Below, one piece after another: positions 51,501 to 53,977 of a stretch of 64,000 nt of DNA. The stretch covers positions 1,054,001 to 1,118,000 of the forward strand of contig NZ_CP042914.1 in assembly GCF_008065135.1 (NCBI RefSeq), given 5' to 3'. Numbering within the stretch: the stretch's first letter is position 1; every line of letters starts with the position of its first letter. Made by a program: the position numbers and the translations under genes. A model generated the notes under the pieces. That model saw only the letters and a list, made by a program, of their open reading frames with translations. It was not told the origin of the DNA and did no database searches. This DNA is from Roseimaritima ulvae. Lineage in GTDB: Bacteria; Planctomycetota; Planctomycetia; Pirellulales; Pirellulaceae.

Positions 51501-51857
51501 CGTGAAGCCAATGAAAAACATGAGTTTTTCTCGCTCGATTACCGCGTCCGGCAGCCGGATGGAAGCTATCGTTGGGCAATTGATTCTGGCCGTCCTCGGT
51601 TCAACGAAGGTGGAGAATTTCTGGGATTTATCGGCTCGGTAATTGACGTTCACGAACGGAAAACTGCTCAAGAATTCCGCCAGAAACAAGCACGCATTTT
51701 GGAAATGGTCGCCTCTGAGCAGCCACTGGATGAGATTTTGAATGAACTTACGTCATTCATCGAATGGCAAATTCCAGGATCAAGCGGATCGATCCTGCTG
51801 CTTGATAAGAAAGGAAATCGGCTTCGCCATGGAGCGGCTCCCAGGCCAGGGCTGTAA
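48555..51857 (+). CDS. Hybrid histidine kinase, N-terminal part (interrupted by small element)
   Basis: 1100 residues, with GGGAGGAACG before the ATG. Order: PAS-like (about 20-160), GAF (about 175-335), HisKA with 'FFSNVSHEFRTPLTL' near 362, HATPase with 'NLLSNAFKFT' and 'GIGLALVQELVKLHGG', receiver (about 640-760, phospho-Asp in 'LVLTDIMMPRLDG', Lys in 'YLVKPFSARE'), PAS with 'VFRDITERRES', PAS with 'GFIGSVIDVHERKTAQEF', and the start of a second GAF ('ILNELTSFIEWQIPGSSGSILLL'). The last four codons and the stop come from an inserted element at 51846. The complete ancestral protein continues at 51992. Confidence 0.93.
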   Translation: MNQRRASADTSTGFLVGDGEMSRRTREFDWSSTPVGPIDDWPQGLKTAVRIMLGSRYAMWLGWGPELTFFYNDAYAKMTLGPKHPGALGRPAGAVWSEIWNEVGPRAESVLRSGEATWDEGLLLFLERRGFPEESYHTFSYSPLPGDGDEVGGMLCVVTEDTERVIGERRLQTLRELAARTIDQAKSVGEACHKASEILADNSEDLPFSLIYLLGTDGRHAQLAGSSGVTANMQISSATVPLNQGDGSWPLHDVVEQGNAIVVDDLAHRFGELKVGPWPEVPQQAMVLPLATPGNSQLAGFLVVGVSSRLPFDDSYRGFFDLLAGQIAATVANARAYEVERERADALAELDRAKTAFFSNVSHEFRTPLTLMLGPIEDMLSRSYTELSPSAKGQLEVVNRNGLRLLRLVNSLLDFSRIEAGRVHAAFEPTNLAAFTRELASVFRSAIERAGLKLVVHCPDIREPVYVDREMWEKIVLNLLSNAFKFTLEGEIVITQRQTGEVVELCVRDTGTGIPSEQMPQLFERFHRIENSQGRTHEGSGIGLALVQELVKLHGGTIAAESSFGEGTTFTIRVPLGKSHLPTDQIGGRSTAVSSATGPTPYVEEALRWLPDETLTEHDTLEKVSLQELQVPSAVAAVPATDDDRPMVLVADDNSDMRQYVVRLLSERFRVTAVADGESALTEVRRRRPDLVLTDIMMPRLDGFGLLKELRDDPRTSDMPVIMLSARAGEESRVEGVEAGADDYLVKPFSARELIARVGAHLQMARMRRESAENLRQSEVQLQKERDLLSVTLASIGDAVVTTDTDSCVTNMNPVAETLTGWTCEEALGQPLDRIFRIVNEQSRKPVENPAERALREGVVVGLANHTVLIRKDGQECPIDDSAAPIRGEDGTIEGGVLVFRDITERRESEKALRESESYFRTMANNAPTMLWVTEADGSCSFLSRGWYEYTGQTEEEGLGGSGFGWLEAVHPDDRDESGRIFREANEKHEFFSLDYRVRQPDGSYRWAIDSGRPRFNEGGEFLGFIGSVIDVHERKTAQEFRQKQARILEMVASEQPLDEILNELTSFIEWQIPGSSGSILLLDKKGNRLRHGAAPRPGL

Positions 51858-51982
51858 GGGTAAGAAACACAATGAAAACGGCCTTTTCTCGTAAAACACA
51901 ACCATGCATCTGAGAATTTGATTTTTGACTTTCCTGCAAAAGCCGGGAAAAGCGACGTTTGACGACACCCTTACAGCCCTGG
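51846..51982. mobile_element. 137-bp non-autonomous element with perfect 16-bp TIRs
   Basis: The ends CCAGGGCTGTAAGGGT (51846-51861) and its exact reverse complement (51967-51982) bound a short non-coding interior. The flanks carry a 9-bp direct duplication, GCTCCCAGG, at 51837-51845 and 51983-51991. Removing the element and one duplication (146 bp) joins the reading frames on both sides in register, through 'HGAAPR' to 'LPQAYNEAIDG'. The size, TIR and TSD are those of a MITE moved in trans by a transposase elsewhere in the genome. The parental family is not identified. Confidence 0.93.
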
Positions 51983-53977
51983 GCTCCCAGGCTGCCACAG
52001 GCCTACAACGAAGCCATTGACGGAATCGCAGTCGGACCGTATGTCGGGTCCTGTGGCTCAGCGGTCTGTCGAGGTGAACGCGTCGTGGTCGAGGACATTC
52101 AATCAGACCCACTTTGGAAGGAGTTCAAAGAGGTAGCTGGGCGGCACGGTCTGGGAGCTTGTTGGTCGCAACCGATACGCGCGAGCGACGGCCGGATTTT
52201 GGGAACGACCGCGATCTATTTTCCCACCACTAGGGCTCCGGTAGCCGGAGAACTCAAAGCGTTAGAATCCACGGCACACTTCGCAGGCATTGCCATTGAG
52301 CGCCCGCAGGCTCAGGCGGCTCTTCGGGAAAGCGAAAAGAACGCTCGGCAGGCAAGTGTTAGCAAGAGTGAATTCTTAGCGAATATGAGCCATGAGATTC
52401 GAACTCCTATGGCCGCCATTCTTGGTCATGCAGATGTGTTGTTGACGCATTTGAAGGATGCGGACAATCGAGGTTGTGTGGACACCATTAAACGAAATGG
52501 CAATCACTTGCTCGAACTTATTAATGACATTTTAGACCTCTCAAGAATCGAAGCGGGGAAACTCGATGTCGAGCTGGAATCGTGCAAGCTGGCGGAGATC
52601 TTGGCGGATATTTGGTCCTTGATGCACATCCGTGTGGAAGGCCGGGCGGTCGATCTTCAAGTTGTTTGCGATGGAAAACTTCCTACCTTCATTTCGACCG
52701 ACCCCAAACGACTTCGGCAAGTTTTAATCAATTTGATCGGCAACGCTATTAAATTCACAGAGGAAGGACAGGTTAAACTGTTGACCTCTTGCGTACGGCG
52801 TGAAGAGCAGTATGCCATTCGATTTGAAGTTCAAGATACCGGGATCGGTATCTCTCAAGAGCACATGACAAAGCTCTTCAAACCGTTCTCACAAGCAGAT
52901 TCGTCCGTCACACGAAAATTCGGTGGAACGGGGCTGGGGCTCTCGATTAGCAAACGACTGGTGTCCATGCTGGGAGGGCAACTGACAGTAGCAAGTCAAC
53001 TCGGGGTTGGCTCGACCTTTTGTGTCGAATTGCCTGTTGGTGAATTAAAAGACGTAGCTTTTTCTGAATGCGAAATTGAGAAGGTATCCAACGAAGCAGA
53101 AGCAGAAGTGGCCCGCAGAAAAGAAAGCCTCAACTGTCGGATACTCCTCGTAGATGATCGCCGCGACGTCCGATTCCTAGCACAGCATATTTTGGAAGGT
53201 GCCGGAGCAGTAACCGTAACGGCAACGGATGGTCGTGAAGGAATTGCGGCGATTCGGACTGCTGAGGAAGAGGGCGTGCCCTTTGATATCGTTGTGATGG
53301 ACATGCAAATGCCGATCATGGACGGTTACGCTGCGACGTCCGAATTACGTGCCAAGGGTTTCAACCGACCCATCATTGCAATGACAGCGAACGCGATGGC
53401 GGGCGATGCAGAACGATGCTTGAACGTAGGGTGCGACGACTATCAGTCCAAACCCGTAGACGCGGCCGAGTTGATTAGCAAAGTGCGCCGACTCACCGAA
53501 ACGATTTCGCTCGAAACGCTTCAAGCCAATCGAGACCAACGCAAAGCAGCGATGCGAAATGCGAATTCAGCTGAAACGAATGGTAACCATAAACGCGTAT
53601 TGGTTGTCGACCCTAGCGTCGATGCCGCGCGTGCTACCGCTGCTCTACTAGAACTCGAAGGTTATCGAACGACGTTGTGCCATAGTGGCCAAGCAGCCAT
53701 GCATTTGATAACTGAAGCATCACCTAGTTGCATGGTGATGGACGTTGCGCTTCCTGATATGAACGGTCAAGAGATCGCCCGAGAGCTTCGCAGGAACGGT
53801 TTTCGCGGGTTGCTCATCGCACTTTCAAATAAAACCGAGAAGGATCAAGATCTGCTGGAGGCTGGGTTTGACCATCAACTGATGAAGCCAGCCCCCAAAG
53901 GCAAATTGGTAGAATTGATATCGGCTCATGCGGACAAGAGTGGGCTCGCCGAGGATGAATCATCCACTGCCCAGTAG
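51959..53977 (+). CDS. Hybrid histidine kinase, C-terminal part (downstream of element)
   Basis: 672 residues. The TTG used as start lies inside the inserted element, so the first 11 residues are not ancestral. Then: rest of the GAF domain ('VGPYVGSCGSAVCRGERVVVEDIQSDPLWKEF'), HisKA with 'FLANMSHEIRTPMAAILGH', HATPase with 'INLIGNAIKFTEEG' and 'GTGLGLSISKRLVSMLGG', receiver 1 ('ILLVDDRRD', phospho-Asp in 'IVVMDMQMPIMDG', Lys in 'YQSKPVD') and receiver 2 ('VLVVDPSVD', Asp in 'CMVMDVALPDMNG'). If translated it would be a soluble kinase with two receivers but a broken sensor domain. Confidence 0.92.
   Translation: MTTPLQPWAPRLPQAYNEAIDGIAVGPYVGSCGSAVCRGERVVVEDIQSDPLWKEFKEVAGRHGLGACWSQPIRASDGRILGTTAIYFPTTRAPVAGELKALESTAHFAGIAIERPQAQAALRESEKNARQASVSKSEFLANMSHEIRTPMAAILGHADVLLTHLKDADNRGCVDTIKRNGNHLLELINDILDLSRIEAGKLDVELESCKLAEILADIWSLMHIRVEGRAVDLQVVCDGKLPTFISTDPKRLRQVLINLIGNAIKFTEEGQVKLLTSCVRREEQYAIRFEVQDTGIGISQEHMTKLFKPFSQADSSVTRKFGGTGLGLSISKRLVSMLGGQLTVASQLGVGSTFCVELPVGELKDVAFSECEIEKVSNEAEAEVARRKESLNCRILLVDDRRDVRFLAQHILEGAGAVTVTATDGREGIAAIRTAEEEGVPFDIVVMDMQMPIMDGYAATSELRAKGFNRPIIAMTANAMAGDAERCLNVGCDDYQSKPVDAAELISKVRRLTETISLETLQANRDQRKAAMRNANSAETNGNHKRVLVVDPSVDAARATAALLELEGYRTTLCHSGQAAMHLITEASPSCMVMDVALPDMNGQEIARELRRNGFRGLLIALSNKTEKDQDLLEAGFDHQLMKPAPKGKLVELISAHADKSGLAEDESSTAQ

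Follow-up and report, generated by a model that had tools for sequence, protein, structure and literature searches.

A putative MITE and its resident IS4-like element at the axis of a REP-like palindrome in Roseimaritima ulvae, with one copy splitting a hybrid kinase gene

A small element lying within a hybrid kinase gene of the planctomycete Roseimaritima ulvae is very probably a non-autonomous MITE that is moved by a resident IS4-like transposase, usually into the axis of a REP-like palindrome, and that in the kinase gene has come to rest off target. The mover of this element of 135 or 137 bp would be the 457-aa IS4-like DDE transposase of four 1443-bp ISs with the same 16-bp ends. Such an enzyme would cut its target with an 11- (or 9-) bp stagger centred on the axis of a short G+C-rich palindrome, and copies would hence usually come to lie at the tip of a REP-like hairpin, 23 bp long and GTAG-tagged, of which the genome has very many. 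At the kinase gene, where the site matches this target poorly, the element would have entered the second GAF domain and thereby split the frame. The stretch of DNA that was analysed, here called the window, comprises 64,000 nucleotides of contig NZ_CP042914.1 (positions 1,054,001 to 1,118,000), and coordinates refer to it unless stated otherwise.

The interrupted kinase gene

The two parts of the kinase gene are as follows:

48555..51857, + strand: left part of the split hybrid kinase, with GAF, HisKA, HATPase, response regulator and PAS; its last residues and its stop come from the element (ORF, Pfam)
51959..53977, + strand: right part, with the rest of a GAF domain (46-136 of the 136 positions in the profile) plus HisKA, HATPase and two response-regulator stretches; hypothetical TTG start in the element (ORF, Pfam)

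An earlier, sequence-only reading of this DNA had claimed that the coding interruption heals in frame when 146 bp are removed, and this is indeed the case: 48555-51845 joined to 51992-53977 gives a single frame of 1758 aa whose sole stop is the last codon. The same reading had the element supply the stop of the left half and a possible start of the right half, which likewise holds, as the stop of the left ORF at 51857 lies within the element and the right ORF can start at the TTG at 51959. Its statement that one gene has become two stands at the level of the reading frames and does not extend beyond them. Since the right part holds the later portion of a GAF profile, the element sits inside a GAF domain, the second one of the kinase.

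Homologues of the kinase were matched in 24 of 100 genomes of the same family; 12 loci were fetched, and five of these were aligned. In all five, which are too distant for an empty-site comparison at the DNA level and were compared as protein, the polypeptide is continuous across the junction and contains no insert; one of them stems from the same genus (53% identity). A scan of 51600-52300 with a sigma-70-type consensus returned no promoter-like site, a result that says little for this organism, and a consensus scan for promoters or terminators contributed by the element found none. The kinase would now be either inactive or made as two proteins. For the annotation of this region, the 'kinases' at 48555 and at 51959 belong together as the pieces of a single interrupted gene.

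Ends and target duplication of the element

The perfect 16-bp terminal inverted repeats attributed to the element are present: CCAGGGCTGTAAGGGT is found at 51846-51861 (+) and 51967-51982 (-) with 0 mismatches, and these two ends are the only matches in the window when up to three mismatches are allowed (chance expectation 0.34). They are flanked by GCTCCCAGG, a 9-bp direct target duplication (51837-51845 and 51983-51991). An exact direct copy thus exists as claimed, but its length can equally be read as 11 bp, with GGCTCCCAGGC at 51836-51846 and 51982-51992, which leaves a 135-bp element with 15-bp ends starting CA. All 19 sites in the genome read G-[9 bp]-C, so that a duplication of 9 bp (CC ends) and one of 11 bp (CA ends) fit equally and are indistinguishable in the genome itself; the assertion that the borders are fixed to the base therefore falls.

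51847..51981, + strand: putative MITE, preferred reading of 135 bp with 15-bp ends CAGGGCTGTAAGGGT (ends, duplication, relatives)
51846-51982, + strand: the same element in the sequence-only reading, 137 bp, 16-bp ends (as good a fit to the 19 copies)
51836..51846, no strand: left copy of the target duplication, 11-bp GGCTCCCAGGC (9-bp: 51837-51845; sequence)
51982..51992, no strand: right copy of the target duplication, 11-bp GGCTCCCAGGC (9-bp: 51983-51991; sequence)

We lean towards the 11-bp duplication and the 135-bp element because of the end choice in relatives of the resident IS, which are not unanimous. The 11-bp reading fits better in Acidovorax (two copies, L110 and L111), in a Sulfuricellaceae MAG (L108) and in a Rhodospirillales MAG (L114); 9 bp is better in a relative on a Methylomagnum plasmid (L145; 0 versus 1 end mismatch), and a relative on a Calothrix plasmid (L142) has a duplication of 10 or 12 bp, hence neither 9 nor 11. 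Four relatives are neutral, with both lengths fitting equally: those of Nostoc, Azotobacter and Pseudomonas, and the element of G384, a genome discussed below. The other relative loci examined showed no ends plus duplication by the criterion used, L099 being the one doubtful case.

Copies across the genome

Each strand of the 8.21-Mb genome carries the 16-bp end 19 times, and these occurrences pair to form 15 elements of 137 bp and four of 1443 bp. The insertion is confirmed as real rather than a chance arrangement, because both ends recur at 18 other places in this genome and the direct duplication is exact at 19 of 19 elements. The 15 MITE copies are mutually identical, as are the four ISs. 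When two mismatches in the end are allowed, just four extra places appear, all of them unpaired (one with a backwards control), and an interior 34-mer of the MITE, searched with up to three mismatches, finds just these 15 places and matches perfectly at every one. The latter search revealed no decayed MITE copies in the genome, and this suggests a recent burst of the element. Among 98 genomes searched, the MITE is found in its own genome only; the best match elsewhere is a stretch of 26 bases (E 0.001).

The sequence-only reading had proposed that a recently active MITE-like element splits a gene, and had advised a search of the genome for further copies of the terminal repeat and for a full-length transposase gene with the same ends. 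Both exist, the former as 19 elements in total and the latter in the four 1443-bp ISs, and the proposal agrees with 15 copies that show no differences and with the lack of any decayed copy. Could the split of the kinase gene be an artefact of assembling or sequencing a repeated element? Repeats can be misplaced in assemblies; yet the genome is a single contig, the 137-bp repeat is short, and every copy has its own duplication, so that we regard an artefact as scarcely credible.

The resident IS and its transposase

Each of the 1443-bp ISs encodes a 457-aa protein with a DDE_Tnp_1 domain (PF01609; 40.3 bits, cut-off 23), which scores 103.4 bits against the NCBIfam IS4 model NF033592 and is thereby below the cut-off of 115. 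In an alignment of this transposase with two relatives, D141, D211 and E317 are invariant. The Y-(2)-R-(3)-E-(6)-K motif is incomplete, with Y310, R313 and E317 present and Q324 found where K is expected. Among the 21 loci scanned, the YREK search expression matched 15, 12 of them without the K, which is found in L112, L098 and L099 only. Because departures from YREK mark off separate families (PMC2266710), we call the resident IS IS4-like and not a proven IS4 member. The target duplication in the IS4 family is about 10 bp long (8-13 bp over the subgroups), and subgroup IS4Sa has CA------T ends and is listed with a duplication of 8-10 bp (PMC2266710); the ends of the resident IS, CAGGGCTGT, match CA------T under the 11-bp reading, and its duplication is 9 or 11 bp. 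An ISAs1-family origin, first guessed from the end sequence, was rejected: the only PF13808 match in the genome (genome positions 6268874-6269110) is in none of the four ISs.

At E 1e-10, 7 genomes out of 392 from the phylum, its own included, contain relatives of the transposase. In named genomes, a search with the transposase sequence by itself gave no relative and one with an alignment gave 15 loci; 20 plasmid records, cyanobacteria and proteobacteria among them, contain relatives as well. No relative with a solved structure was found. The nearest named relative (51%) belongs to a Planctomycetota MAG. At the locus of this closest relative (L105, 1-1550), the ends run into GGGC/GCCC flanks at the edge of a short contig and there is no direct duplication; perhaps this is a rearranged or misassembled palindromic target.

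The mover of the MITE

The MITE and the IS share only their ends, 17 bp at one and 16 bp at the other, and their interiors are unrelated (score 21, reached by 40 of 200 shuffles). The MITE is thus not a simple internal deletion of the resident IS, an origin that we considered and do not find supported. From the shared ends, the 457-aa transposase is likely the mover of the MITE. It could instead be moved by another, unseen transposase, one that was lost or that resides in another host, its ends resembling those of the IS by common descent; the interior, which shares nothing with the IS, would suit this explanation. We consider it unlikely, as the ends are identical (16 of 16 bp), the MITE and the IS use the same register in the same repeat, and the genome contains no other pair of such ends.

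The target: a GTAG-tagged REP-like palindrome

At 17 of 19 sites, the target is a REP-like hairpin, a GTAG-tagged palindrome of 23 bp, and the element lies precisely on its axis of symmetry. With the element and one of the two target copies removed, these sites read GTAGCATGGG-N7-CCCGTG, 16 of them exactly and one with one mismatch. The count is made up of 18 fetched sites, 17 of which hold the repeat, and the kinase site of the window; the fetched site L072 and the kinase site are without it. Whichever strand carries the repeat and whichever way the element points, one and the same base forms the centre of the duplication.

The repeat has 555 matches in the genome at up to one mismatch (control 0), and three genomes of the same genus that were searched gave 4, 0 and 0 matches; it appears to be a species-level amplification. 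After the GTAG tag, it folds into an 8-bp stem and a 3-base loop on which the duplication is centred (z -3.5; 0 of 200 shuffles), and its copies are often clustered in alternating orientation. The tag, the hairpin and the high copy number are those of GTAG-type REPs (PMC2817692, PMC3733652). An apparent preference of the repeat for one strand in parts of the chromosome has been withdrawn; the matches listed leave out minus-strand places. Three intact copies of 23 bp are present in the window:

19384..19557: span of the three intact target repeats (sequence match), at 19384-19406 (+), 19414-19436 (+) and 19535-19557 (-)

The two exceptions, the kinase copy and the MITE copy at L072 (genome positions 5021285-5021421), both interrupt reading frames. 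At L072, the frame is open over at least 329 aa once the element is left out, and it may be that of an esterase, judged by a motif. Each of the two sites has 3 of 8 symmetric pairs, versus 5-6 of 8 at the REP sites; of 200 shuffles, 119 fold as well as the kinase site, which shows no advantage, and 15 as well as the L072 site, which shows no clear one.

The enrichment in REP-like sequences might be thought to reflect survival, with random insertion at G+C-rich sites followed by the loss of genic insertions. Since both off-repeat copies interrupt frames, insertion into genes does happen and may in many cases carry a cost, and the target preference might in part be selection against it. As a full explanation, survival is nevertheless very improbable, given that 17 of 17 copies share one register at the axis. 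If the bare target is taken as GG-N7-CC (with the 314 such sites of the window extrapolated to the whole genome), finding 17 of 19 copies in the repeat has a P of about 4e-30, and P is still about 1e-14 if only 12% of these sites are tolerated and 88% forbidden (an assumed figure). A related IS, moreover, adjoins the axis of a different palindrome in all five of its copies or remnants, as described next.

Axis targeting in relatives

G384, from the same class and another family, carries an IS with a 37%-identical transposase, whose three complete copies are all centred on CACGGCTC-NNN-GAGCCGTG, a sequence that G384 contains 167 times when one mismatch is allowed (control 2). This palindrome is also adjoined by two solitary ends that bear the terminal repeat of the IS, which brings the tally to 5 of 5 copies or remnants. 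Relatives in proteobacteria show no clear palindromes at the four loci compared (2, 5, 2 and 2 of 8 symmetric pairs). Axis targeting has therefore been observed in two genomes from a single class and does not characterise the group as a whole.

That transposases of 37% identity, from different genera, hit the exact axes of two different abundant palindromes whose central bases are free raises the tentative idea that this IS4-like branch reads the geometry of a palindrome, that is, the axis of a hairpin or cruciform, and not a fixed sequence. The REP, the IS that homes to it and the MITE that rides along would then form a three-layer system. We regard this idea as speculative and rather doubtful.

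As a separate observation, locus L097 (1229-2078) contains an 850-bp element with the 15-bp ends of the G384 IS, only a piece of a transposase and no 11-bp duplication; it is an internally deleted relative in another genus.

Relation to known systems

Bacterial MITEs are defined as short, non-coding sequences with terminal inverted repeats, target duplications and ends shared with transposase-bearing ISs (PMC3733652). The element studied here, which is non-coding in six-frame translations and multicopy, possesses all of these features; it differs from bacterial MITEs in general by an interior that is unrelated to the resident IS and by its REP-like target. ISRm22 of Sinorhizobium meliloti, which belongs to the IS4 family, subgroup IS4Sa (PMC2266710), has its copies in REP sequences, 10 of 10 in Table 2 of the relevant paper, with insertion at the axis of palindromy (PMC1525189). 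The resident IS and the MITE resemble it in being inserted into a REP-like repeat at a fixed point on the axis, in 17 of their 19 copies. By its published description, ISRm22 differs in its 6-bp direct repeats and in a host from another phylum; the passages that describe it mention no MITE partner. REP specificity has also been reported for ISPsy8, ISPa11, ISPpu9, ISPpu10 and ISRm19, with ISPsy8 found at the symmetry axis of a predicted hairpin (PMC1525189), but these belong to the IS3 and IS110 families and have another chemistry and other duplication lengths.

GTAG REP families have been reported from Planctomycetes (PMC3733652), and the target studied here is like GTAG-tagged REPs in that it starts with GTAG, folds into a short hairpin and exists in hundreds of copies, often in alternating clusters. 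The search for a cognate RAYT established none: one of 13 loci with Y1_Tnp matches has the target repeat, about 1 kb away; the other 12 have no target repeat at up to three substitutions, save for two hits at L080, which are a different hairpin. At L080, two copies of this other GTAG hairpin, GTAGCCACGGGCGTCAGCCCGTG (2093-2115 and 2310-2332), lie after a RAYT-like gene with a Y1_Tnp match and are possibly that gene's own REP class.

Our search of the literature on MITEs in REPs or in Planctomycetes found no paper on this element. Insertion of IS4-family elements at the REP axis and MITEs as such were already known, and the present case is a clean further example of this kind. With the IS, its putative MITE and several hundred targets intact and apparently recent in one genome, the choice of the REP axis as a target by an IS4-like transposase becomes directly testable. 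If the three-layer system were true, it would keep insertions mostly out of genes; as a strategy of safe sites it leaks, since 2 of the 19 copies are off target, both in reading frames.
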